Source: a virus. From it: a DNA stretch of 28,215 nt. Below, in pieces: positions 2,622-20,162 of this stretch. The stretch covers positions 1 through 28,215 of IMG/VR virus record IMGVR_UViG_3300030333_006069; one strand, written 5' to 3'. Every line of letters begins with the position of its first letter. Within the stretch, counting starts at the first letter, position 1. The notes under the pieces were generated by a model, which was given only the letters and a program-made list of their open reading frames with translations, was not told the origin of the DNA and ran no database searches. Both the position numbers and the translations under genes were made by a program.

Positions 2622-3056
2622 ATGCCAACAACTTATGTAAATTATTGGAAAGAGATATCTGAAAAATTCCAATCTAAGTTTAGAGAAGAATTTGGTAATT
2701 CTATGCCAGTTTTTATAGGAGAAGGTGATTACTCTGGAAATCAATTTTTAAAAATAACTCCTGAGTCAAATTCATTGTCTGAAAGATATGTTATTGGAGA
2801 ATTAAGAGAATATAATTTTAAATTTATTTATTATTTTATGGATGCAAATATAAAGAAAAAAGCTCTTATCCATATGCTTAGAATTATATGCAGAATAGAA
2901 TCTTTAATTGCATCTAATAGAAGAATTGCTTTAACTAATTCTACAAGTATAGTCAATAGTATAATAAGTAGTTATAATATAATTGAAGGCTCTGAAGGAT
3001 ATGATTATTTAATAGATATTAATTTTACTTGTCAACATTTAGGAAATATTAGTTAA
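2622..3056 (+). CDS. putative neck / tail-completion protein
   Basis: A 144-residue alpha/beta protein placed after the adaptor and before the tail tube, where head-closure and tail-terminator proteins are encoded. It is clearly paralogous to the first ~145 residues of the next gene. Shared positions include a W near residue 9, the FR.EFG motif at about 20-25, GNQ.L.I.P at about 39-47, E.RE at about 60-63, R.I.RIESLI at about 87-95 and a terminal F.C.H. Head-closure or terminator proteins form hexameric rings at the head-tail joint, and tandem copies could form two rings or one mixed ring. No strong ribosome binding site is seen; the start lies 3 bases after the previous stop, suggesting translational coupling. 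Confidence 0.5.
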   Translation: MPTTYVNYWKEISEKFQSKFREEFGNSMPVFIGEGDYSGNQFLKITPESNSLSERYVIGELREYNFKFIYYFMDANIKKKALIHMLRIICRIESLIASNRRIALTNSTSIVNSIISSYNIIEGSEGYDYLIDINFTCQHLGNIS

Positions 3057-3058
3057 AG

Positions 3059-6000
3059 ATGGGCGTTTCTTTTACAAATAATTGGGAAATTATTTTAAAT
3101 AAACTTGAAAGCATATTTAGAACAGAATTTGGAAAGACTTTAAATGTTTACACAGGAATTAAAAATGATTTTAAAGGCAATCAATATTTAAGAATTTCTC
3201 CTTCTTCTAGTACATTTACAAATTATTCTTCTCATTTAGAATATAGAGAGTTTGGTATTAATTTAACTTTACACTTTAAAAGTCCTAATTCTAAAGAATC
3301 TTCTAATGATCAAGTTATGAGATTGATATCTAGAATAGAATCTCTTATTGTTGATAACTCTGCAATGACATTATCTGATAATAGTATTGCATATAATTGC
3401 AGAATTGATTCTACTGAAATAAATACTGAAAGTGAAAATGAGTATATAGTTTTATTTGATTTTAAATGTGTCCACGCTAATAGTAGCCTTACACCAACAG
3501 TAACAATTACAGCAGCAGAGGTTGCAGATGGTGCAACATCTTCTGATAGTGCATTATCTTTAACCTTTACTCTAAACAGAGATTCAGATAATTTTGTTGT
3601 TGGAGATGTAGATGTTACCAATGGATCATTAAGTAGCTTTAGTGGCTCAGGATCAGTTTATACAGCTACATTTACACCATCAACACAAGGTGCAACTACT
3701 ATAAAAGTATTAGCAGATAAGTTTACAGGAATAGGTGCATCAGGTGGTAATACTGCATCAGATATATTTAATTGGACTTATGTGCCTAAATTTGTATTTA
3801 CAGTTGAAATTCCATCAGATGATAAAACTTTTGCTTTACCAATAGTAGAAGTTGCAGGGCATACACCAAGTTTTAATATAGATTGGGGTGATAGTAGTAA
3901 TGATGATATAACTGCACATGATGATTCAGCTTTAGATCATACATATAGCACAGCAGGAACTAAAACAATTACAATAGATGGAACAGTAAAAGGTTTAAAG
4001 TTTATTGGTGGTGGTGATAAGGATTTAATGAGAACTATAAGTAATTGGGGTGGATTAGATATTACAGAGCAATTAACTTTTAAAGGATGTACATATTTAA
4101 ATGTATCAGCAAGTAATGCACCTACAGTAACTTCAACTAATTTAAATTCAACATTTATGGATTGTCCTGCATTAACAGCAATAGGGACAGGATGGAATGT
4201 TTCAAGTGTTACAAATATGCAAAATATGTTTCATGGTTGCACAAATTTCAATGGTTCTGACCTTGTAAATTGGAATACAGCCTCATTAACAAATATGAAT
4301 GGCTTATTTGAAGATGCAAGTTCTTTTAATCAAGATATAGGTTCTTGGGATGTTGCAGATGTAACTAATATGGCAGAAGTATTTTATAAGGCATCATCTT
4401 TTAATCAAGATATAAGTAGTTGGAATGTGTCTAATGCTACTAGTATGTATCGCATGTTTACAAGTGCTATAGCTTTTAACAATGGTGGTAGTGATAATAT
4501 TAAAAATTGGGATACATCTAGTGTAACTAATATGGAATCAATGTTTAGAGAAGCTTCATCTTTTAATCAACCTTTACCAACAGATGGTAATAAATGGAAT
4601 GTTAGTTCTGTAACTACTTTTAAATCTATGTTTCAACTTGCATCTGTATTTAATCAAGATATTTCAAGTTGGAATGTAAGTTCAAGTGAAAGTTTTTATC
4701 AAATGTTTTACAATGCAGATGCATTTAATCAAGATTTATCAAATTGGACATTTACAACAGATGCTAGTAAAGATATTGATGCTTTTGGAATGTTTAGAGC
4801 TATGAATGTATTTAATAGTCCATTAAATTGGGGTAGCAAAACAGCAAGATTTACAAGAACAGCAGGAATGTTTTGGTATACAGAAAATTTTAATCAAGAC
4901 ATAGATGGATGGGATACATCTAATGTTACTGATATGAATAGTATGTTTAGAGATGCTACAGCCTTTAATCAATCTTTAAATAGTTGGAATGTATCTAGTG
5001 TTGAAAATTTTTCTTATATGTTTAATAATGCTAGTTCATTTAATCAACCATTAAATGATTGGGATTTTAAAACAAGTGGAGATATAGATATGAGGGCTAT
5101 GTTTAGAGGTGCAGTTGGTTTTAATTCCTCTTTAGCTTGGTGTGATGGTGCAGGTAGGGCAAATAATACTGCAAGAGTTACAACTATGTGGTATATGTTT
5201 GATTTAGGTGGTTCTGATGTTTTTACAGGAATAGGATTAAATAATTGGGATACATCTAATGTTACTGATATGACTAATATGTTTTCATATACTGATGCTT
5301 TTAATGCAGATATATCTAATTGGAATACATCTAGCGTTACTAATATGTCAGCTATGTTTAGCCATGCTACAGCTTTTAATCAAAATATTAATAGTCAAGG
5401 TAAAAATGCATCTAATTTAAAAGGTTGGTGGAGATTAAATAATAGTTTAGAAGATGAAAAGGGATATAATAATGCTACTAATAGTGGTGCAAGTGCTGTT
5501 AGTGGTAGTGGAAATACAGTAGGTAGCTTAAATACTCACTCTTACGATTTTGAATCGACTGAAAGTGATTATATGAATTTAGGAGACCACGAATTTGCTA
5601 CAACAGAAGGTAGTATGTCAGCTTGGGTAAAAATAGAATCTGATACAGATGATATTCAATCAATTCTTGCTAAATATGATACTCCAAGTGATAGAAGTTA
5701 TCAAATAGGAATAAATGCAGATTTAAAACCATTTTGTAATGCTATGGACACAGCAATTTCTTTTGATTCAAATACTGCAATAACATCTTCTGATGCTTTA
5801 AGCACAGGAACTTGGTATCATATAGTGGGTACATTTTCAACAAGTGATACACATAAAGTTAAAATATATGTTAATGGTGTTTTAAAAGGCACATCTGCCA
5901 ATTCACTAGATAGTGGAATACAGGATACATCACAACCTATTTATATAGGCAGAGATGGAGATGGTAATTATTTTGATGGACTTATACAAAATGTAGCAAT

Positions 6001-6427
6001 ATGGGATACTGTATTAACAGCAGAAGATGTAGAAGATTTATACAATAGCCTTGCACCTACTGATTTACAAGAACCTGCTTCTTATGATACTCCTAATGCT
6101 AAATGGAGCGTTTCTAAAGTTACCAATATGACAAGTATGTTTGAAGATGCTGATGCTTTTGACCAAAGTTTATCTGAATGGAATTTTGATGATATAACAG
6201 GCTCATCTACAGGATTTAATAATTTTATGAAAGATAAAATAAGTAGTGATAAATATAGCACAGCTAATTACAATGCTTTATTAGTTCAAATAGAGCAAAC
6301 TAATGAAGAAACTGATTTGCAATTACATGCAGGGGGTGCTAGTGGTGCAGAGCCAACAGGTGCAGGAGATACTGCAAGAGCTGCCCTTATTACAAGAGGA
6401 TGGACAATAACAGATGCAGATAGCTAA
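3059..6427 (+). CDS. neck protein fused to Ig, PKD-like, BspA-like repeat and LamG domains
   Basis: A 1122-residue multidomain protein. Residues 1-144 are a paralogue of the preceding neck protein. Residues 145-242 are a bacterial Ig-like domain (TPTVTITAAEV, then VTNGSLSSFSGSGSVYTATF). Residues 245-325 are PKD-like (FNIDWGDSS, then DHTYSTAGTKTITI). Residues 360-782 hold about 15 BspA-like DUF285 repeats of about 25 residues built on W[ND]xSxVTNMxxMFxxAxxFNQ. Residues 786-1000 are a LamG/ConA-like lectin domain (WWRLNNSLEDE, SAWVKIE, GTWYHIVGTF, KIYVNGVLKG, YIGRDGDGNYFDG). One more DUF285 repeat follows at about 1018-1045, and the C-terminus (RAALITRGWTITDADS) is the usual DUF285 array end. 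LamG is thus inserted inside the array. The likely role is a surface-displayed adhesin anchored at the neck, binding glycans or cell-surface proteins. Confidence 0.75.
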   Translation: MGVSFTNNWEIILNKLESIFRTEFGKTLNVYTGIKNDFKGNQYLRISPSSSTFTNYSSHLEYREFGINLTLHFKSPNSKESSNDQVMRLISRIESLIVDNSAMTLSDNSIAYNCRIDSTEINTESENEYIVLFDFKCVHANSSLTPTVTITAAEVADGATSSDSALSLTFTLNRDSDNFVVGDVDVTNGSLSSFSGSGSVYTATFTPSTQGATTIKVLADKFTGIGASGGNTASDIFNWTYVPKFVFTVEIPSDDKTFALPIVEVAGHTPSFNIDWGDSSNDDITAHDDSALDHTYSTAGTKTITIDGTVKGLKFIGGGDKDLMRTISNWGGLDITEQLTFKGCTYLNVSASNAPTVTSTNLNSTFMDCPALTAIGTGWNVSSVTNMQNMFHGCTNFNGSDLVNWNTASLTNMNGLFEDASSFNQDIGSWDVADVTNMAEVFYKASSFNQDISSWNVSNATSMYRMFTSAIAFNNGGSDNIKNWDTSSVTNMESMFREASSFNQPLPTDGNKWNVSSVTTFKSMFQLASVFNQDISSWNVSSSESFYQMFYNADAFNQDLSNWTFTTDASKDIDAFGMFRAMNVFNSPLNWGSKTARFTRTAGMFWYTENFNQDIDGWDTSNVTDMNSMFRDATAFNQSLNSWNVSSVENFSYMFNNASSFNQPLNDWDFKTSGDIDMRAMFRGAVGFNSSLAWCDGAGRANNTARVTTMWYMFDLGGSDVFTGIGLNNWDTSNVTDMTNMFSYTDAFNADISNWNTSSVTNMSAMFSHATAFNQNINSQGKNASNLKGWWRLNNSLEDEKGYNNATNSGASAVSGSGNTVGSLNTHSYDFESTESDYMNLGDHEFATTEGSMSAWVKIESDTDDIQSILAKYDTPSDRSYQIGINADLKPFCNAMDTAISFDSNTAITSSDALSTGTWYHIVGTFSTSDTHKVKIYVNGVLKGTSANSLDSGIQDTSQPIYIGRDGDGNYFDGLIQNVAIWDTVLTAEDVEDLYNSLAPTDLQEPASYDTPNAKWSVSKVTNMTSMFEDADAFDQSLSEWNFDDITGSSTGFNNFMKDKISSDKYSTANYNALLVQIEQTNEETDLQLHAGGASGAEPTGAGDTARAALITRGWTITDADS

Positions 6428-6675
6428 TGAAAGAAATTAAATACAAAAATATAAACAAATACTATTGGTGTGCTTGGGGTGGTGATGTAGTGCATTTTGG
6501 TAAATTAGAAAGTGGTCAAAGAGTAACTACAGGGCAACCTAATTTAGAAAATTATGCAACAGAAGAAGAATTAGAAGCTAAAGTTGATAGCCTTAAATCA
6601 GAGGATTATTATAAAGAGCATACTATGACGGAAGAAGAATTTGCAAAATATTTAGAAGATAAAGAAAAAGAATAG
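6427..6675 (+). CDS. small acidic hypothetical protein
   Basis: An 82-residue protein starting in a TAATG overlap with the stop of the giant neck fusion, so it is translationally coupled. The N-terminal half has a compact beta-like pattern (YYWCAWGGDVVHFGKLESGQ). The C-terminal half is a charged helix rich in Glu and Lys (TEEELEAKVDSLKSE, then MTEEEFAKYLEDKEKE). It might be a chaperone or accessory for the adjacent display protein, but nothing in the sequence proves this. Function unknown. Confidence 0.65.
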   Translation: MKEIKYKNINKYYWCAWGGDVVHFGKLESGQRVTTGQPNLENYATEEELEAKVDSLKSEDYYKEHTMTEEEFAKYLEDKEKE

Positions 6676-6687
6676 ATTTTCTAGAAT

Positions 6688-6777
6688 ATGTTTATTAAAT
6701 TATGCTATAAGTTCTATAACCAAATCTCTAGAAGTTGTAATATTTCTAGAAATATCTTTATACAGGAGAATGTATGA
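6688..6777 (+). CDS. possible 29-residue microprotein
   Basis: A short ORF in the only sizeable gap of the structural operon. It begins MFIKLCYKFYNQ, contains two Cys, and ends in a TGA that overlaps the next ATG as ATGA, the arrangement used by real gene pairs here. No convincing ribosome binding site precedes its ATG, and the region also holds a 16-base palindrome, so the ORF could be fortuitous. Confidence 0.3.
   Translation: MFIKLCYKFYNQISRSCNISRNIFIQENV
6740..6755. repeat. 16-base perfect palindrome with central TCTAGA
   Basis: ATATTTCTAGAAATAT is a perfect palindrome. It lies 18 bases before the next ATG, in a gap that also holds two further CTAGAA sequences (at 6681 and 6728). It may be a protein-binding site, an RNA hairpin affecting translation of the following small gene, or a chance AT-rich palindrome. 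Confidence 0.4.
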
Positions 6778-6953
6778 AAGTAAAATTAAAAAAAAATGTA
6801 AAGTTGTCGCAAAATAGAAATTATATGGGATTAGATACTAATATTTGGATAGCTTTAAATCAGGGAAAATCAGTAGAGTTAAATGTTATTCCTAAATTAA
6901 TTAAAGATAAAATAGAATCAGTTTCAGGTTCAAAGAAAAAAGGAGATAAATAA
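6774..6953 (+). CDS. small basic hypothetical protein before the tail tube gene
   Basis: A 59-residue ORF with a good ribosome binding site (AGGAGA, 6 bases before the ATG), ending in a TAATG overlap with the tail tube gene. It begins MKVKLKKNVKLSQNR and has a basic tail (SGSKKKGDK); the middle (IWIALNQGKSVELNVIPKLI) reads as a small beta structure. Small proteins at this position often belong to the head-tail joining set, but no family is recognised here. The strong start and overlapping stop make it a real gene in my view. Confidence 0.7.
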   Translation: MKVKLKKNVKLSQNRNYMGLDTNIWIALNQGKSVELNVIPKLIKDKIESVSGSKKKGDK

Positions 6954-7957
6954 TGGCAAATGCAGCTTTTTCACCAAAAGACTTTAAAGTAGGGATAGTT
7001 GAAGAAGCTACTCCAGGAACTATACCTACATTAACAACTACCAATATAATAAAACAATTAGATGTAGATTCTATTGCATCACCTACTTTAAACGTTAATC
7101 AAGTTTTAGAACCTAGAACACAAGATGGCAGAATACTTTCAAGTGTTGATTTTTTTCAAGATAATAAAAATTCTGCAAAAGAAATTACATTAACAGGAAC
7201 TTTTCATAATGATGCTGGTCATAGAATGCTAATACAAAGTGTTTGTGGATTAACAATAGCTACAGCTGATGGAGATTTGGCATTACCATATAATGCTACA
7301 GGTGTAAGTGGAAGGTATGGAGTTGCACAAGAGGATGCTACTTTTACTTTAGTTGTGGCTTCTCCTGATACTACAGATGGATACAATTTTGTAATGGCAG
7401 GTGCTATGTGTACAAATTTTCAAATAACTGCTGATAGTGGAACTGATGGAGGGCAATATAAATTTAGTGCTACAATAAGCTCAGGTAGACCTGTAACTCT
7501 TGATAATGAAACACCTGAATCTATTGGTGCATATTCTGCAAATCCTATTCCAATTTCAAGGTTAGCAACTAAAAAAGTTTATAGCCAAGATGTTGTTCTT
7601 AATTCTTTTGGTGTAACTATAGATAGTCCTGCAGTTTATATGGGAACATCTATAACGGGATATGATGCATTTGCAAGAGGGTCGGAAATATCAGTAACAG
7701 CTACAGCTCAAGTTAAATATGATTCTGTTACAAGAGGGTTTATTAATAGTTTTGATTCTCAATCTACAGGAGACCATGATGCTGCTGATGCTTTTACTAT
7801 GACTCAAACAACTGCAACTGATTGCTCAATTGCAATCCCTTCAGCAGTTCTTACAAATGTTGAATTGTCTGAAGGTGATATAATGATGTTAGATGTTGAA
7901 ATGAAAGCTGTTAGTTTAGGCTCTGGAAATATAATAACATTTGACTTAACATCTTAA
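6953..7957 (+). CDS. putative major tail tube protein
   Basis: A 334-residue, beta-rich protein. The N-terminus (FKVGIVEEATPGTIPT) matches the usual start of siphophage tail tube subunits (G.E...G..P), which polymerise into hexameric rings around the DNA channel. The product is soluble, Ser/Thr/Ala-rich and has no membrane segment. It lies immediately upstream of the G/GT chaperone pair and the tape measure gene, the standard position for the tube gene. Its start overlaps the previous stop as TAATG. The length is at the upper end for the family, leaving room for an extra domain in the C-terminal half. Confidence 0.72.
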   Translation: MANAAFSPKDFKVGIVEEATPGTIPTLTTTNIIKQLDVDSIASPTLNVNQVLEPRTQDGRILSSVDFFQDNKNSAKEITLTGTFHNDAGHRMLIQSVCGLTIATADGDLALPYNATGVSGRYGVAQEDATFTLVVASPDTTDGYNFVMAGAMCTNFQITADSGTDGGQYKFSATISSGRPVTLDNETPESIGAYSANPIPISRLATKKVYSQDVVLNSFGVTIDSPAVYMGTSITGYDAFARGSEISVTATAQVKYDSVTRGFINSFDSQSTGDHDAADAFTMTQTTATDCSIAIPSAVLTNVELSEGDIMMLDVEMKAVSLGSGNIITFDLTS

Positions 7958-8324: not shown

Positions 8325-8721
8325 TTGCAATCTTCATAGCTATCCATATGAAGCTTCTGTTCCAATATCAGGTTATGGAATAAAAACTTTTAAAAGCGAT
8401 GAAGATGTTTTTAATATAATTGATCTTTTAATAGCTGAAACTAAGGAGGCTAATGAAAAAATGAATAAAAATTTTGATATAGCATCCTCTATAATGGCAC
8501 AACTTCCTCACTTTAGTTGTGTAAATGTTGTCTATAAAAAAGAGCATCAAGAGAATATATCCAAATATTTATACTGCAAAGAATTTAGCACTCCACCTTA
8601 TCCTGGTAGCTATGGGCAACAACCACGCAAATGGATTACAAAATCAAATATTATAAGATACGCTTTATCTAAAAAAGAGCAATCAGAAATTAATAAACAA
8701 AAATCTAAGGACAATATCTAA
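8269..8721 (+). CDS. T-like extension, read by -1 frameshift from the G gene (GT fusion)
   Basis: This frame is -1 relative to G and has no stop from the G-run at 8266-8270 to the TAA at 8719-8721, adding 150 residues to the ~100 of G. It contains FSNWCEGCNLHSYP and GYGIKTF early on. The last part is basic (KKEQSEINKQKSKDN). The stop overlaps the tape measure ATG as TAATG. A shorter independent product from ATG 8461, preceded by AAGGAGG at 8443-8449, is also possible (86 residues). The 64 open codons upstream of that ATG, plus the slippery site and stem, argue that the main product is the GT fusion. In lambda-like phages, GT recruits tube subunits to the tape measure. Confidence 0.75.
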   Translation, partial: GIESLTLELNIHFSNWCEGCNLHSYPYEASVPISGYGIKTFKSDEDVFNIIDLLIAETKEANEKMNKNFDIASSIMAQLPHFSCVNVVYKKEHQENISKYLYCKEFSTPPYPGSYGQQPRKWITKSNIIRYALSKKEQSEINKQKSKDNI

Positions 8722-10826
8722 TGGCTGAATCATTTAGTGCAGCAGAAGGTTTTAATAAACTTGCTAAGGCATTAGGCTTAACAGAAAAAAGAGCTAAAGC
8801 AGCTACTAAAGCTGTAGATAAGCTTAATAAAACAGCTTTAAATAAAACTGGCTCTGAGGGAAAAAGAGCTGCAAAAATAATTGAAGATTTGACTCGTCAA
8901 TTAGCAAAATTTAATGCTCAATCTAAAAAAACTAGAAAAAAGACTAGGCTTTTAAATAATACTTTTGCAACAATGAGATCAAAAATACTTCTTTTTAATT
9001 TTGCTATGGGATTAGGAATAAGACAATTAGGAAAATTTGCAAAAGAGGCTGCTAAAGTTGAGTCTATGAATAGAGCATTTAATACTCTTTCAGGGGGCAT
9101 AGATTCTGGAACAGTTGCAATAGAAAAGTTAAAAGTTGCAACAAATAATACTATGAGTCAGTTTGATTTATTTCAACAAGCAAATAATGCAATGATTTTA
9201 GGTGTTTCTAAAAATTCAGATGAAATGGCAGAGATGTTTGATATTGCTCAAAGACTAGGTAGAGCTTTAGGTAGAGATACAGCATCATCTGTTGAGTCAC
9301 TTATTACTGGTATTGGTAGACAGTCTCGTCTTATGCTTGATAATATTGGTATCATAGTAAAAGCAGATGAAGCATATGAAAAATATGCTAATAAAATTGG
9401 AACAACTGCTGATAAATTAAGTGATGCTGATAAGAAAACTGCATTTTTAGAAGCTACTATGGAATCAGCAAGGGCAAAAATAAATACTCTTGGAACTGAA
9501 ACATTGTCTTCTCAAGATTCTTTTGATGCTTTTTCAGCAACTGTTAAAGATTTATCAGTTATGGTTGGAGATAGATTAAAAGGGGCATTTTCTGGAGCAA
9601 TGGATGCATTTGTTAGATTTGTTGATGTTAATAAAGCTGCAGACGTAGAAACTGCTATGACCTCAAAATCATATGAGGTTTTAGCTATAACAGTTGATAG
9701 ATTAAAAAATAAATTAGAAGAGTCAGAAGCAGCATCAAGAAATCAAGGTATTGCTTTTAATGCAGGTGTTGGTATATATTCATTATCTGCTGAAAAAATT
9801 AAAGAAATGAAAGATCAAATTGCTAGTCTTCAAACTGAAATGGCTAATTTACTTTTTATAATTGATGCAGAGCCTTTTAAAACTCCTTTTTTTGAAAAAT
9901 GGGCTGACTTTGATAGAGATTCTACAATTGAAGTAATAAATAGATTTAATCAAGAATCAGAATCTTTATTAAATGATTTTTGGACTAAGAGACATGCTCA
10001 AAATTTACAAGCTTTTGCTATAGAAGAATCTGCATTAATAGCTGCTGCTCAAGATACAATAGATAATGAAACTGCACTACAACAAACAATTTTAGAAATA
10101 CAAGAACATTTTGCTAATGAAAGAAAAAAACTATCAGAAGGTGAAGCAAAAATAGAAGAAGAAATATTAAAAGAAAAAATATCAAGCTATCAAGAATTAG
10201 GTACTGCTTTTTCTGATGTAGGAAGTTTATTTAGAAGTAATGTTGAACAAAATATGAAAGCTGATATTAATGCAGCAAGGCAAACAAGTGAATATAAGAT
10301 GGCTAGAGAACGTGGCGATAGAAAAACTATGGAAGCATTAGAAAAAGAGGCAAAAAATAAACACCATGATAGCTTGGTTGCTGCCTTCAGAATGGAACAA
10401 GCCAGTTCTATTGCAAATATAATTATGAATTTTGCACAAGCCCATGCAAAAACCTTTGCAACTATGCCTCTTCCTGCTGCTTTAGCAAGTATGCCTTTAT
10501 TGTCAGCCCTTACTGCTACACAAATTGGATTAGTAGCATCTCAATCACCACCTCAAAAATTTGCACAAGGTGGTATAGTTGGTGGTAGAAGGCATTCACA
10601 GGGTGGAACTATGATAGAAGCAGAGCAAGGTGAATTTGTTATGAATAGAAGTGCAGTTCAGGCCATTGGGATAGAAAACCTTAATCGTATGAATCAAGGT
10701 GGTGCAAGTGGTGGTATAACTGTAAATGTATCAGGCAATGTTATGAGCCAAGATTATGTAGAAGGTGAATTAGCAGAACAAATAAAAGAAGCTATTAGAA
10801 AAGGCAATGATTTTGGAGTATCATAA
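8721..10826 (+). CDS. tape measure protein
   Basis: A 701-residue, mostly helical protein that sets tail length by scaffolding tube assembly and is ejected with the DNA. Visible features are a basic, Lys/Ala-rich N-terminal coil (about 1-80), a hydrophobic helix at about 88-106 (ILLFNFAMGLGIRQLG), and long amphipathic helices to about 300 and again at about 420-560. A hydrophobic Ala/Met/Leu-rich stretch covers about 550-610. A conserved tape-measure C-terminus follows (GGIVGGRRHSQGGTMIEAEQ, then GEFVMNRSAV) at about 616-645. At about 0.15 nm per residue the predicted tail is roughly 100 nm. It follows the G/GT pair directly with a TAATG overlap. Confidence 0.9.
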   Translation: MAESFSAAEGFNKLAKALGLTEKRAKAATKAVDKLNKTALNKTGSEGKRAAKIIEDLTRQLAKFNAQSKKTRKKTRLLNNTFATMRSKILLFNFAMGLGIRQLGKFAKEAAKVESMNRAFNTLSGGIDSGTVAIEKLKVATNNTMSQFDLFQQANNAMILGVSKNSDEMAEMFDIAQRLGRALGRDTASSVESLITGIGRQSRLMLDNIGIIVKADEAYEKYANKIGTTADKLSDADKKTAFLEATMESARAKINTLGTETLSSQDSFDAFSATVKDLSVMVGDRLKGAFSGAMDAFVRFVDVNKAADVETAMTSKSYEVLAITVDRLKNKLEESEAASRNQGIAFNAGVGIYSLSAEKIKEMKDQIASLQTEMANLLFIIDAEPFKTPFFEKWADFDRDSTIEVINRFNQESESLLNDFWTKRHAQNLQAFAIEESALIAAAQDTIDNETALQQTILEIQEHFANERKKLSEGEAKIEEEILKEKISSYQELGTAFSDVGSLFRSNVEQNMKADINAARQTSEYKMARERGDRKTMEALEKEAKNKHHDSLVAAFRMEQASSIANIIMNFAQAHAKTFATMPLPAALASMPLLSALTATQIGLVASQSPPQKFAQGGIVGGRRHSQGGTMIEAEQGEFVMNRSAVQAIGIENLNRMNQGGASGGITVNVSGNVMSQDYVEGELAEQIKEAIRKGNDFGVS

Positions 10827-13481
10827 ATGGCTATAACTATACCTGATGCTTTTAAAAGCCATATACAAAGCAATCATACTAATATATATCCTTATGTAGT
10901 AATTGATGTTGATGGATTAAATATAAGAATATCTACAAATGCATTTAGTATAAGATATAGTGATGCAGACAATACTATAGAAACATATAAACCACTTTTG
11001 TTAAATGTTCCATCATTAAAAGAATCAATAGATTTAGAAACAAGAAAGTATAAAATAAATTCAGTTTCATTAGATATTAGCAATGTAAAGTATGAAGGTA
11101 CAAGATTTTCAGAATTAGTTGCAGAAACATCATTAATGAACTCAAGGGTTCAAATATATTGGGGATCACCTGTATTAAAGTCTAATAATGATGCTTTATT
11201 AGTTTATGATGGAACAGTTAGAAGATATACTCATACAGATGATAAAGTAAAAATAGAATTAGAAGATAGATCACAGGCATATTTACATAAAGATTTGCCT
11301 GAAACTAATCTAGGTAGTGATGATAATGTTCCTGATAAATATAAAAATAAACCTATTCCAATGGTTTATGGTCATGTTGATAGATCACCATGTGTAATAA
11401 GTAGTCAGCAAAATATAATGATTGATAGTAGAAGTGGTTCTGCAAAATTAATATATAAAACAAATACTATAGAGGGTGTAACTGAATATCCATTATTAAT
11501 ATTTACAGGTGATGCTTATGCTCATGTTTTGCCTGTAATTGAAAAAGTTATAGATGGTTTTATTGATAGAAATGGTGAGCCTTATCAAATTGAATCACAA
11601 TGGTATGAAAATTTAGATAATTCAGGTAATGTTTTACCAAGTAATGTAATTAAGTTAAATCAAAGTAAATTACAAACACTTAATGGTTTACAGGTTAGAG
11701 GTTTTTATAGCCCTATAAATGTAAAATTAATAAATTATGATGATTATCATCCAACAATAGAATACATAAATTATTTAGAAACAGAACCTATAAATCAATT
11801 TGATTTAGAATTTACACAATCAGGAAGTGGTGCAAAATTCTTTTTTGCTTTATACATTTCATTAGATACTCCATATGAATCTGAATTTAATGATGAAGGA
11901 AAAGTATCAATAAATAATTTTAGAGTTCCAAGATTAAATGGAGATAATACTATAACAATAGGAAATGAATCTTCAGTAGCAATAGATCAAAATCTAAATA
12001 TTGATTTAAGTGGGCTTTTTGGAATAGGATCAAACTATTCAGGTACTCCTGATATTATATATGATTCAAGTTCTATAGGTGGTTCATTAAGCAAAACAAT
12101 ACAATTTCACAAAATTGATAATTCAATATATGCAATACCAACTATTGATTCAAAGGAAATATATGGTGTAATATTTTCAGGAAATACACAAGGTCAAGTA
12201 ACAAGCACAACAGCAACAATTACAGGAATAGTGAAAAATGTATTAATTTCTAGGCTTTCAGATGTAAAAAATCCATTAAATTTAAATTATTATGTTAATT
12301 ATGCAGGTAGATTGTCATCAGGAGAAAATAATTCACCAACTGCACCTAGTGCAATAGCAGATATATTAGAAAAAGAATTAGGTGTAAGCACAGATAATAT
12401 AGCTACATTGCCTACTGAATATTCAGATATGCAATATGCTTTTACTGTTCATAAAAAAACTAATTCTAAAAAATTAATAGAAGGCTTGGCATCAGCATCA
12501 CCATATATACCACATTTTAACAATCAAGGCAGTTTTAAGTTTGATACAATTCCATCTAGCAATCCAAGTTCTGATCATACAATACAAGAATCTAAAATTA
12601 TAGATTTTACATATAAAAGAACTAAAATAGAAGATGTAAAAACAAAAGTAGAATTAAAATATAAAATTGATTATGCTAGAGATGAATTTAGTAAACCTGT
12701 AACAAAACAAGAAGATAATGCAGATTTATTTAATTATTATGGTTTAGAGCCTGATCATTCATTATCTACATTAGTGGTTGATGATGATAGGGGTAAATAC
12801 ATAAGGGATGATTTAACTGCTGATAAATTTTGTGATTGGCTATTAGATTACCATAAAAATCAGCATTTAATTATGACAGTAAAATTACCATTATCAGTTG
12901 GTTTACCTATTGAGGTTGGTGATATAGTAGAGTTTGATAAGCTACTAGGAGATGTAAAACCTTATGGAATAGATTATACAGATAATTTTATTCTTAATGA
13001 TCAAAAATTATTTCCTGATTTTATAGTTACATCTACAAATAAAACTTTAGATATGGTTACTATAGAATGTGAGCAATTACATGAACTATTAAAAAATTAT
13101 TTTCCTACAATTTGGGCTACATTTTATCCTGATGATTATATACCTAATTCAAATCATGGATATGCTTATTTTATAGTTGAAGATATGCACATAGATGATG
13201 TTAAAGCAGAAATACCTGCATTATATAAAATAGAAAAAATGTATATTCCTGCTGATCCTGCTATTAATTATTGGTATCCTACAGGAGATAAGGCATATTG
13301 GGATGCAGGTGGTGAAGTAATAAAAGAAGTTACAAATATAACAACTATTTCAACAAATACATATTTTGGAAGTAATCCACCTGAAAATGCTACTTGTTGG
13401 AAGGTGCATTTGTATGGAGATAGTGTAATAACAAGTGATTTATTTGTGCATAATATGACAGCAAATGCAGAGCCAATATGA
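10827..13481 (+). CDS. large tail-tip / hub-like minor tail protein
   Basis: An 884-residue protein encoded directly after the tape measure, starting one base after its stop. The N-terminus (MAITIPDAFKSHIQSNHTNI, then a beta-rich stretch to about 150) reads as a distal-tail-like beta domain. The conserved-looking KNKPIPMVYGHVDRSPC at about 173-190 and the central beta-rich part fit a tail-tip or hub protein. Residues about 520-780 (KLIEGLASASPYIPHFNNQG, then VGLPIEVGDIVEFD) resemble the phage gp27/hub-like segment. No peptidase or lysozyme motif was recognised. It would sit at the tail end and anchor the proteins encoded after it. Confidence 0.6.
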   Translation: MAITIPDAFKSHIQSNHTNIYPYVVIDVDGLNIRISTNAFSIRYSDADNTIETYKPLLLNVPSLKESIDLETRKYKINSVSLDISNVKYEGTRFSELVAETSLMNSRVQIYWGSPVLKSNNDALLVYDGTVRRYTHTDDKVKIELEDRSQAYLHKDLPETNLGSDDNVPDKYKNKPIPMVYGHVDRSPCVISSQQNIMIDSRSGSAKLIYKTNTIEGVTEYPLLIFTGDAYAHVLPVIEKVIDGFIDRNGEPYQIESQWYENLDNSGNVLPSNVIKLNQSKLQTLNGLQVRGFYSPINVKLINYDDYHPTIEYINYLETEPINQFDLEFTQSGSGAKFFFALYISLDTPYESEFNDEGKVSINNFRVPRLNGDNTITIGNESSVAIDQNLNIDLSGLFGIGSNYSGTPDIIYDSSSIGGSLSKTIQFHKIDNSIYAIPTIDSKEIYGVIFSGNTQGQVTSTTATITGIVKNVLISRLSDVKNPLNLNYYVNYAGRLSSGENNSPTAPSAIADILEKELGVSTDNIATLPTEYSDMQYAFTVHKKTNSKKLIEGLASASPYIPHFNNQGSFKFDTIPSSNPSSDHTIQESKIIDFTYKRTKIEDVKTKVELKYKIDYARDEFSKPVTKQEDNADLFNYYGLEPDHSLSTLVVDDDRGKYIRDDLTADKFCDWLLDYHKNQHLIMTVKLPLSVGLPIEVGDIVEFDKLLGDVKPYGIDYTDNFILNDQKLFPDFIVTSTNKTLDMVTIECEQLHELLKNYFPTIWATFYPDDYIPNSNHGYAYFIVEDMHIDDVKAEIPALYKIEKMYIPADPAINYWYPTGDKAYWDAGGEVIKEVTNITTISTNTYFGSNPPENATCWKVHLYGDSVITSDLFVHNMTANAEPI

Positions 13482-14131
13482 TAATTAATTCAGCAAATAT
13501 AAAACCTGCAAAAGTAGAAGATAAATATTATTTAGGCACTTTAAGTTATACTAATGGTCAAAGAATAGGTGTAATTAGAAAGAATGGTATTATTATAGAT
13601 AGCACCTTAATAATCCCATCAATAGTAAATGGTGTTTTATCAGTAGAAAATATTACATTTAATTTAGGCATTGAAACAGATCAAGATAATGAAAAAGTAT
13701 ATTATAATAATGCTAGTTTAAAAGTAAAAACCTATAATGAAGGTGTAGATATATTATTAGATAAAATTGATATACCTTTAGAATTAGATTTAGATGCTAC
13801 GCAGCAAGTATTAGAATTTGTTAATTTTAAAACAGAATTATTTAAAATACAAGATGTTAATATAGATCAAACATTTGATATAGTATTTCAGGTAATTGTT
13901 AATAATTCTATAGCACAAGAAATATTTGTCAGATTTCATTATAAGCCATCAAATAATATAGGTGATGTAAATGGTGATGGAGTTATAGATTTAAGGGATA
14001 TGGTAGCATTATCAGATTATGTGATGCAAAACACACCTTTAAATAAACTTGAATTTGCAGATGTGAATAAAGACCATGAAATAACTAAACATGATGTAAT
14101 AGAACTTAGCAGGAGGGTTTTAAATGGCTAA
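13478..14131 (+). CDS. minor tail protein with C-terminal dockerin-like domain
   Basis: A 217-residue protein starting in an ATGA overlap with the tail-tip gene. Residues 1-155 are beta-rich and Ig-like in pattern, with no recognised family. Residues about 160-217 form a type I dockerin-like domain: the Ca-binding loop DVNGDGVIDLRD, a helix (MVALSDYVMQN), then a second loop DVNKDHEITKHD and helix (VIELSRRVL). Ca ligands at loop positions 1, 3, 5 and 12 (D, N, D, D) are present in both. Dockerins bind cohesin domains with high affinity. In a phage tail the domain could fasten this protein to another tail subunit or to a host-surface cohesin-bearing protein. The tail role is inferred from the operon. 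Confidence 0.72.
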   Translation: MIINSANIKPAKVEDKYYLGTLSYTNGQRIGVIRKNGIIIDSTLIIPSIVNGVLSVENITFNLGIETDQDNEKVYYNNASLKVKTYNEGVDILLDKIDIPLELDLDATQQVLEFVNFKTELFKIQDVNIDQTFDIVFQVIVNNSIAQEIFVRFHYKPSNNIGDVNGDGVIDLRDMVALSDYVMQNTPLNKLEFADVNKDHEITKHDVIELSRRVLNG

Positions 14132-18056: not shown

Positions 18057-18202
18057 CAAGTCTCCTTTATTGGGGATTTTTTACGTTCTTCATTTTTTAT
18101 ATTCCAAAAAAATTCATTTCTACCATCTGTATTATCAATACATAAACAGCATATCCTATCATCTTTATCTATCTCTGCATCACATTTATAGCAAGTATTC
18201 AT
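18056..18202 (-). CDS. small Zn-ribbon-like protein
   Basis: A 48-residue ORF starting in an ATGA overlap with the stop of the methyltransferase gene. It begins MNTCYKCDAEIDKDDRICCL and carries CxxC at 4-7 and CCLC at 18-21, the four-Cys pattern of a zinc ribbon. The C-terminal part is charged (NEERKKSPIKET). It and the next gene form a tandem pair of Zn-binding microproteins between the methyltransferase and the helicase. Function unknown. Confidence 0.6.
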   Translation of the reverse strand: MNTCYKCDAEIDKDDRICCLCIDNTDGRNEFFWNIKNEERKKSPIKET

Positions 18203-19134
18203 AACAAACCTTTTATTATTTCTTCTACAACAGGAACACTAACAGTATTCCCTAACTGCTTATACCTTTGAGTATCTGATTGTCCTTCTGTCCATCCATC
18301 AGGATACCCTTGCAATCTTTCACATTCTATAGGAGTCAATCTTCTAATTTGAGACTCCATTTTATATAATCCTGTCTTAGCACCCCATCCACCACCTTCT
18401 GCTTTTAATGTACAAGCTATTCCATTAGGATCAAAGACTCTACCAGCATCACCATTGGCAACTCTATCTAATAAAACTATTTTAGGGTCTTTATAATCTC
18501 TAGCACATAAAGCAGGAGATATTTCTTTCTCATCATATTCTCTAGGAGATGCATTAGTTATTCTGATTCCTGATTCTTTTTGCATTCCTCTATTCTCTTC
18601 ATAGCCTTCTCCGATAGGAAATATTTTTGGTCTACGTTCTCCTCTAAGATGTCCGACAAAGAAAACTCGCTCTCTATTTTGGGGGAGAAACCACCGTGTA
18701 TTAAGTAATTGCCATTGACCATCATACCCAGCGTTGGCAATCTCTTGTAGGCAGATGATAAAGTCGTATCCATCGTTGCTTGAGAGAAGACCTTTGACGT
18801 TTTCAAAGATAATATGTCTGGGTCTTTTAGCCCTGATGATTCGCATTGCTTCAAAGAATAAGCCGCTTCGTGCAGCTGTGAGTCCACCTCTTTTTCCAGC
18901 CATTGACAAGTCCTGGCAAGGGAATCCGAAAGTGACGAGGTCAAGTCTTGGCAAATCTCTAGGCTGAATAGACTCAATTCCTCCGAGTTCTTCTGCTTCA
19001 TTAAAATGTCTCCTAAATATATTGTTAGCGTATTTATCTATGTCTGAGTATCCATGCCATCCATGTTTAATCCCTAGATTTCTCATTGCTAGGGAAAAAC
19101 CACCAATGCCACTAAATAAGTCAAGATGATTCAT
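18199..19134 (-). CDS. DNA (cytosine-5) methyltransferase
   Basis: A 311-residue enzyme with all the main C5-methyltransferase motifs. These are I DLFSGIGGF (5-13), IV GFPCQDLS with catalytic C73 (70-77), VI ENV (111-113), VIII QNRERVFFVG (152-161), IX RLTPIECERLQG (265-276) and X QLGNTVSVPVV (293-303). The target-recognition region lies at about 165-262. It transfers a methyl group from S-adenosylmethionine to cytosine in a specific short sequence that cannot be deduced here. No partner restriction enzyme is adjacent, so a protective or regulatory role on phage DNA is likely. The start overlaps the end of the PAPS-reductase-like gene by 14 bases. Confidence 0.93.
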   Translation of the reverse strand: MNHLDLFSGIGGFSLAMRNLGIKHGWHGYSDIDKYANNIFRRHFNEAEELGGIESIQPRDLPRLDLVTFGFPCQDLSMAGKRGGLTAARSGLFFEAMRIIRAKRPRHIIFENVKGLLSSNDGYDFIICLQEIANAGYDGQWQLLNTRWFLPQNRERVFFVGHLRGERRPKIFPIGEGYEENRGMQKESGIRITNASPREYDEKEISPALCARDYKDPKIVLLDRVANGDAGRVFDPNGIACTLKAEGGGWGAKTGLYKMESQIRRLTPIECERLQGYPDGWTEGQSDTQRYKQLGNTVSVPVVEEIIKGLL

Positions 19135-19882
19135 CGTCTAATCCTTCTGCTATCATGCCACAACTAATAGAACAGCTAATAGGTGGCTCATCTTTATATC
19201 TACCCATATTATCCTTTAAGTCGTCTAGAAACAATGGTTTTCCTTCATCTTCTCCAGACCTATGTTTTAATATAGAATTTCCAACATCTTTTTCTATAGA
19301 TGCCATTCTATTAAATTCTTTAGGAAAATCTTTTTTTATTTTATTCCAATAACCTATCCCACCTTTAACACAACCTATACAATTATTATGATTATAACCT
19401 AACTCATACATCTTAGGCAATTCTATTCCTAGCCTCCAAAGTATACCAAGACAATCTTCTTTAGTAACCTCGTTATCTATTAATATCCAATCTGTATATA
19501 TCTCAGGATTGTTATTATTAAATCTTTCTACTCTCTTTTTTTCTTCTAAAGTATATCCTAGTATATGTATATCATCAGGTCTTTGATACTCTAATCTTAA
19601 TTTCTTCTTTAATTCTATTGTGCAGTATGCAAATCCAACTTTTACAAAAAATTTTTTATCTTCAAATACATCAAAATGGCTATCATAATCTTTATTTTTA
19701 AGGATGGTCACATCTTTACCTATCCACTTTTCTACATCTTTTAGAAATTTTTTATTAGAATGATGTTCTCCACCTGTATCACAATATACTACATCACAAT
19801 CATCGCCATATTTTTTTACAGATAGTTTTGCAGCTATAGCAGATGCTGCGCCACAACTAAACCATACTACTGCTCTACTCAT
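19121..19882 (-). CDS. PAPS reductase / N-type ATP pyrophosphatase family protein
   Basis: A 253-residue protein. I choose ATG 19882 because it has AAAGGAATAAAT upstream and gives the standard N-terminus of the family. A start at 19963 would add 27 residues and overlap the previous gene. VVWFSCGAASAIAAKL (5-20) is the PP-loop in the SCGAAS variant known from phage members, with VVYCDTGGEH at about 31-40. CTIELKK follows at about 87-93, then CIGC at about 168-171 and two Cys near the C-terminus (ISCSISCG), suggesting a metal or Fe-S site. The family activates sulfate or substrates through adenylation. Phage members are of unproven function, and sulfur modification of DNA or tRNA is one possibility. 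It lies directly before the DNA methyltransferase gene. Confidence 0.75.
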   Translation of the reverse strand: MSRAVVWFSCGAASAIAAKLSVKKYGDDCDVVYCDTGGEHHSNKKFLKDVEKWIGKDVTILKNKDYDSHFDVFEDKKFFVKVGFAYCTIELKKKLRLEYQRPDDIHILGYTLEEKKRVERFNNNNPEIYTDWILIDNEVTKEDCLGILWRLGIELPKMYELGYNHNNCIGCVKGGIGYWNKIKKDFPKEFNRMASIEKDVGNSILKHRSGEDEGKPLFLDDLKDNMGRYKDEPPISCSISCGMIAEGLDDESS

Positions 19883-19946
19883 ATTTATTCCTTTATTTAC
19901 TAGAGAAAGGATAGGCATTTCGTTTCTCGGTATCCATGCCCTCCAA

Positions 19947-20162
19947 TTATCCTTCCTCTCCATTTAGGACTCTGTCCCAATAATTTGAACCTGCCTCTCG
20001 CCTGGCACACGGTGTACATATTACACCTATCCTCTCATCCCCCAAGAAATGAAGTGCTGGATGATGATACCAATCAAAAAACTTTGCTAACATTTTATAT
20101 TTACCACACGAGTGGCAGGTTCTTGTTTCTTTTTTATCTCTTGGTGATAACCATTTTTGCAT
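19947..20162 (-). CDS. small zinc-finger protein
   Basis: A 71-residue basic protein with CHSCGKYKMLAKFFDW (Cys at 16 and 19) and CTPCARREAG (Cys at 50 and 53), a four-Cys zinc finger resembling that in some HNH-type and phage zinc-ribbon proteins. No HNH catalytic histidines are seen in place. It overlaps the HTH gene by 29 bases. DNA or nucleic-acid binding is plausible, but the specific function is unknown. Confidence 0.65.
   Translation of the reverse strand: MQKWLSPRDKKETRTCHSCGKYKMLAKFFDWYHHPALHFLGDERIGVICTPCARREAGSNYWDRVLNGEEG

Follow-up and report, generated by a model that had tools for sequence, protein, structure and literature searches.

We analyzed a window of 28,215 bases, an IMG/VR virus record whose source is a phage, that is, a virus infecting bacteria, and in it the gene at 3059-6427 (+), a single intact open reading frame that runs from ATG to stop and encodes 1,122 aa. 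The protein consists, in order, of a tail-terminator domain (residues 1-145; 3059-3493, +), a Big_12 Ig-like domain (residues 145-235; 3491-3763, +; Pfam E 1.3e-10), a PKD-like stretch (about residues 244-310; 3788-3988, +), a DUF285/BspA-like array (residues 330-777; 4046-5389, +), a LamG (ConA-like lectin) domain (residues 835-991; 5561-6031, +), and further DUF285 cores with a BspA-type C-terminal cap (residues 1005-1122; 6071-6424, +). The array contains 15 repeat cores, each centered on a conserved tryptophan (W379 to W755), and two more (W1016 and W1041) stand between the LamG domain and the cap. Pfam matches to Big_12, DUF285 (PF03382; 413 bits against a gathering score of 25; E 7.4e-126 in five stretches), and Laminin_G_3 (PF13385; 104 bits against 27.6; E 9.4e-30) all exceeded the curated cut-offs. 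The protein also matched the NCBIfam repeat TIGR02167 (2.9e-32), and the LamG domain gave weak sequence matches to LamG/pentraxin-type proteins among PDB sequences. The PKD-like stretch was recognized by a WGD...HTY..AG.KTITI motif and predicted strands; three homologous stretches tested against Pfam gave no match even at E 1.

A first-pass annotation made from the sequence had described a ring-forming neck domain joined to Ig-like and PKD-like domains, about 15 DUF285 repeats, a LamG domain interrupting the array, and one further repeat with the usual C-terminus. The profile searches with the DUF285, LamG, and Ig families and the count of repeat cores bear out the Ig-like domain, the repeat number, and the interruption, as cores lie on both sides of the LamG domain. 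The cap is likewise present but is preceded by two further cores rather than one, and the PKD-like assignment agrees with the motif and predicted strands but not with Pfam. Chimeric assembly was ruled out as the origin of the fusion because several contigs carry it at the identical junction. The full-length structure model was poor past the anchor (mean pLDDT 59), with no resolved fold for the LamG part, and we therefore draw no arm geometry from it.

Tail terminators are the proteins whose ring closes the tail below the head. The anchor (residues 1-145) was modeled with AlphaFold2 from an alignment to 60 homologues drawn from the window and related contigs; the model had a pLDDT of 81 and a pTM of 0.72. 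The predicted structure shows a terminator fold of two helices and a four-stranded sheet. Its top match was T5 p142 (VIA-align Z 15.6, 135 aligned residues, rmsd 2.2 A); the Z values were 14.5 for the gene transfer agent, 14.3 for Mu, 12.6 for lambda gpU, 11.9 for the marine phage R4C, and 11.0 for T4 gp15, with many further terminators at Z 10-15. Foldseek also ranked tail terminators top (E 3.7e-6), and in both programs the leading structural matches of residues 1-145 included no tail-tip or fibre protein. Between a neck ring and a tail-tip or fibre fold, the comparison thus sides with the neck domain of the first-pass annotation, and we read residues 1-142, on the strength of the model, as a tail terminator with weak sequence-family matches. 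Pfam Phage_tail_terminator_8 (PF20765) matched 19 of 61 family members, at best with 4.6e-4 and under the curated cut-off, and did not match the window's own anchor domain; three members matched PHROG 176 "tail terminator," and a terminator-family profile found nothing among PDB sequences. A BFVD entry from an uncultured Caudovirales phage, A0A6J5L8B8 (946 aa), contains a structural match to the terminator domain (E 8.6e-6) and may represent a giant terminator fusion in a further phage.

Just upstream of the fused gene lies a second terminator gene (2622-3056, +), here called copy 1, which encodes a plain 144-aa paralogue of the fused protein (copy 2), matching the latter's residues 1-145 at 34% identity (E 9e-26). 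It is preceded by a putative head-tail adaptor gene (320 aa; 1656-2618, +), assigned by position only and, in relatives too, immediately preceding the terminator. Downstream are an 82-aa gene (6427-6675, +), a 59-aa gene (6774-6953, +) of the kind usual between the terminator and the putative major tail protein and conserved in position in relatives, a putative major tail (tube) protein (334 aa; 6953-7957, +) named from gene order and lacking Pfam and PHROG matches, and a 701-aa tail tape-measure protein (8721-10826, +) matching three PHROG tape-measure families (best 1.2e-10). The order of adaptor-like gene, terminator(s), small gene, tube-like gene, and tape measure is conserved in relatives and fits a siphophage neck, with the adaptor and tube placed by position and the tape measure by PHROG.

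Several other genes of the window were recorded on the way. Residues about 164-225 of a 514-aa protein (50-1594) belong to an approximately 80-aa domain, phrog_11439, also found in cyanophage S-WAM1 and in 14 open reading frames of 390-430 aa (for example L004:8341-9576), the size of the longer putative adaptors, which are otherwise about 320 aa. A 217-aa tail-region protein (13478-14131, +), retained in L004 and L086, carries a C-terminal type I dockerin (Pfam 2.9e-11), a calcium-binding docking module unusual for a phage tail, and dockerin-like C-termini also occur on proteins of 1,279 aa (L042) and 1,383 aa (L032). A protein-like 147-aa open reading frame (18558-19001, −) lies wholly within a DNA methyltransferase gene (18199-19134, −) in another frame and is possibly a nested gene; a PAPS-reductase-like gene (19121-19963, −; phrog_424, 5e-49) adjoins the methyltransferase gene.

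Queried singly, neither terminator copy found anything in IMG/VR; a two-sequence profile of copies 1 and 2 yielded 69 loci, and using the array or copy 1 as query added more. Copies were counted where the upstream gene is intact; L063, truncated at its contig edge, and L083, which stops after a copy-1-type gene, were not included. A single terminator was present in 59 loci, where it is always 143-150 aa long and never fused (0/59), some of the contigs being near-duplicates. Nine loci have two copies in tandem (the window, L003, L004, L074, L076, L079, L080, L081, and L082), and in eight of them copy 2 is extended or open-ended at the contig edge. The L080 contig ends just past the terminator domain, ahead of any arm domain, while L004 has two plain copies, the second of which ends at the domain edge. 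Fusions of a terminator to an arm were thus found only in two-copy loci. No isolate relatives emerged from 50,697 phage records, none of which matched the 82-aa gene, the LamG-plus-cap part, the tail-tip protein, the fused protein of L079, or a single-copy terminator, and scans of bacterial genomes revealed no prophage or host.

The arms differ among the two-copy loci. Ig and DUF285 domains make up those of L003, L074, and L076, and the window alone combines Ig, DUF285, and LamG. The complete 853-aa L074 protein has the window's order, including array and cap, without LamG at the equivalent site, so the LamG domain is a real insertion or deletion. The L003 protein starts as the window's does and is cut at 548 aa, and that of L076 is cut inside the Ig domain. 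LamG is accompanied by a CBM_4_9-like stretch in the complete arm of L079, is found in the cut arm of L081, and occurs twice in that of L082, cut at 812 aa. The sequences thus sort into two arm types, Ig-DUF285 and, in a separate clade, LamG/CBM; LamG is gained or lost within the array and, in the other clade, can be joined directly to the terminator. The first-pass annotation had taken no account of the tandem paralogue, which makes its neck domain the second of two terminators, or of relatives, which usually have one unfused copy, can carry other lectin arms at the same site, or, as in L004, can lack the arm. In some relatives with one terminator, multi-LamG proteins are encoded by genes upstream of the head-tail genes rather than carried on the terminator (L021:1389-3302, L027:123-3302, L039:3-2516, and L024:1-1086).

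The armed loci also carry an extra small gene. Two small genes precede the putative tube gene in all three armed loci that are complete to that point (the window, L074, and L079), while no unarmed locus (0/55) has more than one. The extra gene follows the arm gene and encodes about 80 aa; the window's version has its sole homologue immediately after the arm gene of L074 and is found nowhere else in the set, and the extra gene of L079 is unlike it in sequence. As the loci share descent, we regard the link between extra gene and arm as an association and not as 58 independent observations.

In phylogenetic trees, copy 1 of the window formed a 100/100 clade with copy 1 of L003, L004, L074, and L076, while copy 2 clustered with the single-copy terminators of relatives, which makes the armed copy the orthologue of the usual terminator. 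The plain copy 2 of L004 was placed among armed copies, and the simplest reading is that L004 lost its arm. The trees favor an independent duplication in the L079 clade, although one shared duplication for the two armed clades was not rejected (p-AU 0.08 and 0.07 in one tree set and 0.21 in another). DNA identity between the window and L003 was 61-76% in the anchor, 97-98% in the Ig domain, and 67-77% in the PKD-like part that follows, with sharp edges; these steps suggest a recent exchange of the Ig module by recombination.

We infer neck placement from fold, orthology, and gene order, and we consider it probable that copy 2 serves as the neck-ring anchor for adhesive arms that are optional and exchangeable. 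Copy 1 would be the plain ring subunit. Copy 2, the orthologue of the relatives' lone terminator, would bear on its C-terminus an arm made of an Ig linker, a PKD-like spacer, a rod of DUF285 repeats, a LamG lectin domain, and the cap. In the virion, it would be built into the terminator ring, or form a ring atop it, at the top of the tail, with up to six arms projecting from the neck. The first-pass annotation had allowed for twelve; solved siphophage terminators are hexamers (PMC11784142), which predicts six arms, or a smaller number in a mixed ring. The arms may tether the virion to glycans on particles or host cells as the tail tip seeks its true receptor, and so raise the chance of adsorption. 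In a broader form, which we advance tentatively and hold at slightly less than even, duplication of the terminator would have created a programmable neck attachment slot: one copy would serve the plain ring, and the other, with its companion small protein, would carry interchangeable lectin arms that recombine through the Ig module, the arrangement having arisen more than once in one phage group.

How the two copies share the ring is the point on which another reading comes closest. In a mixed ring, copies 1 and 2 would alternate in one hexamer with three arms, so that an armed copy would occur only beside a plain one; we regard this as a serious, if less favored, possibility and as the best explanation with another stoichiometry. 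It agrees with the restriction of fusions to two-copy loci, and since the genes of copies 1 and 2 abut or overlap, they are probably co-translated. The T5 ring has C3/pseudo-C6 symmetry already, the C-terminus of p142 takes part in the ring interface, and a C-terminal tag gives aberrant fibres (PMC11784142). By analogy, the ring may not readily accept an arm on each of its subunits, and this could be a further reason for finding armed copies only next to a plain one. Both copies have lost residues conserved in the family, yet the complementarity of these losses, a sign of alternation, was not above chance, and two stacked rings or a ring of copy 2 alone fit the data equally well.

That the arm is mainly structural or protective, reinforcing the neck, bracing capsid and tail, or masking against competitors, seems to us unlikely. 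The neck decoration proteins of phage 812 are proposed to be neck stabilizers (PMC12886913), but the swapping of LamG and CBM-like domains fits ligand binding better than bracing, and L004 has no arm. Slightly less likely still is that copy 2 occupies another site in the virion, such as the tail tip, as a terminator-like extra ring whose arms are ordinary tip fibres. Genome position can mislead in this way, as T5 p143, encoded beside the terminator, is a tail-tip protein (PMC11784142); p143, however, lacks the terminator fold, the leading structural matches here are all terminators or tail-top caps, and copy 2 is orthologous to the single terminator of relatives. Finally, we rejected as very improbable a pair of tube and sheath terminators as in contractile phages (T4 gp3 and gp15), because no sheath gene was recognized: although myophages normally have two terminators, some with extra domains (PMC11784142), the window has one 334-aa tube-like gene and then the tape measure, single-copy relatives share this layout, and the extra domains (Ig, LamG, and DUF285) include none that bind a sheath.

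Our preferred reading, armed copies of the terminator at the neck, can be set beside known systems. Residues 1-142 resemble tail terminators (T5 p142, lambda gpU, SPP1 gp17, and R4C gp18) in fold, length, and position between adaptor-like and tube-like genes; the locus differs from these in its two tandem paralogues, the second with a C-terminal display arm of about 980 residues, and in its weak family sequence matches. The phage 812 tail terminator gp99, a six-armed clamp, likewise adds an outward-projecting domain to a terminator core (PMC12886913), but that domain is a single sheath-binding beta-sandwich, unlike the long modular lectin-type arm of the present phages, which have no recognized sheath gene. 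In function, the closest parallel is with the lactococcal neck passage structure of 936 phages and TP901-1, a proposed collar whose projecting arms bear terminal carbohydrate-binding modules; it is an accessory structure that varies from phage to phage and is non-essential in TP901-1 (PMC6669499). Its anchor combines a BppU-like beta-sandwich with trimeric coiled coils, in contrast to the terminator domain and Ig/DUF285/LamG rod described here. The fused protein showed no BppU-like N-terminal beta-sandwich, its N-terminal domain having a predicted terminator alpha/beta fold, and because of this different anchor we do not count it as a member of that structure. The repeat and C-terminal cap are shared with BspA-like/DUF285 (PARCEL, TIGR02167) surface proteins of bacteria and jumbo phages. 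Related DUF285 arrays occur in Aeromonas, Vibrio, Synechococcus, and other phages, but none of the best-listed phage matches combines the array with the terminator part, and no match covers 80% of the query. In the literature searched, itself incomplete, we found no description of a duplicated terminator as the anchor for adhesive arms.

To our knowledge, sugar-binding neck appendages occur in few phages and are built on dedicated collar proteins. Duplication of a core ring protein, followed by use of one copy as the anchor for exchangeable arms, would be a simple route to new attachment organs. A tandem, extended terminator may then predict neck arms in uncultured phages from sequence alone, and as the arm is naturally present or absent within one clade, its role would be directly testable once a member is cultured.
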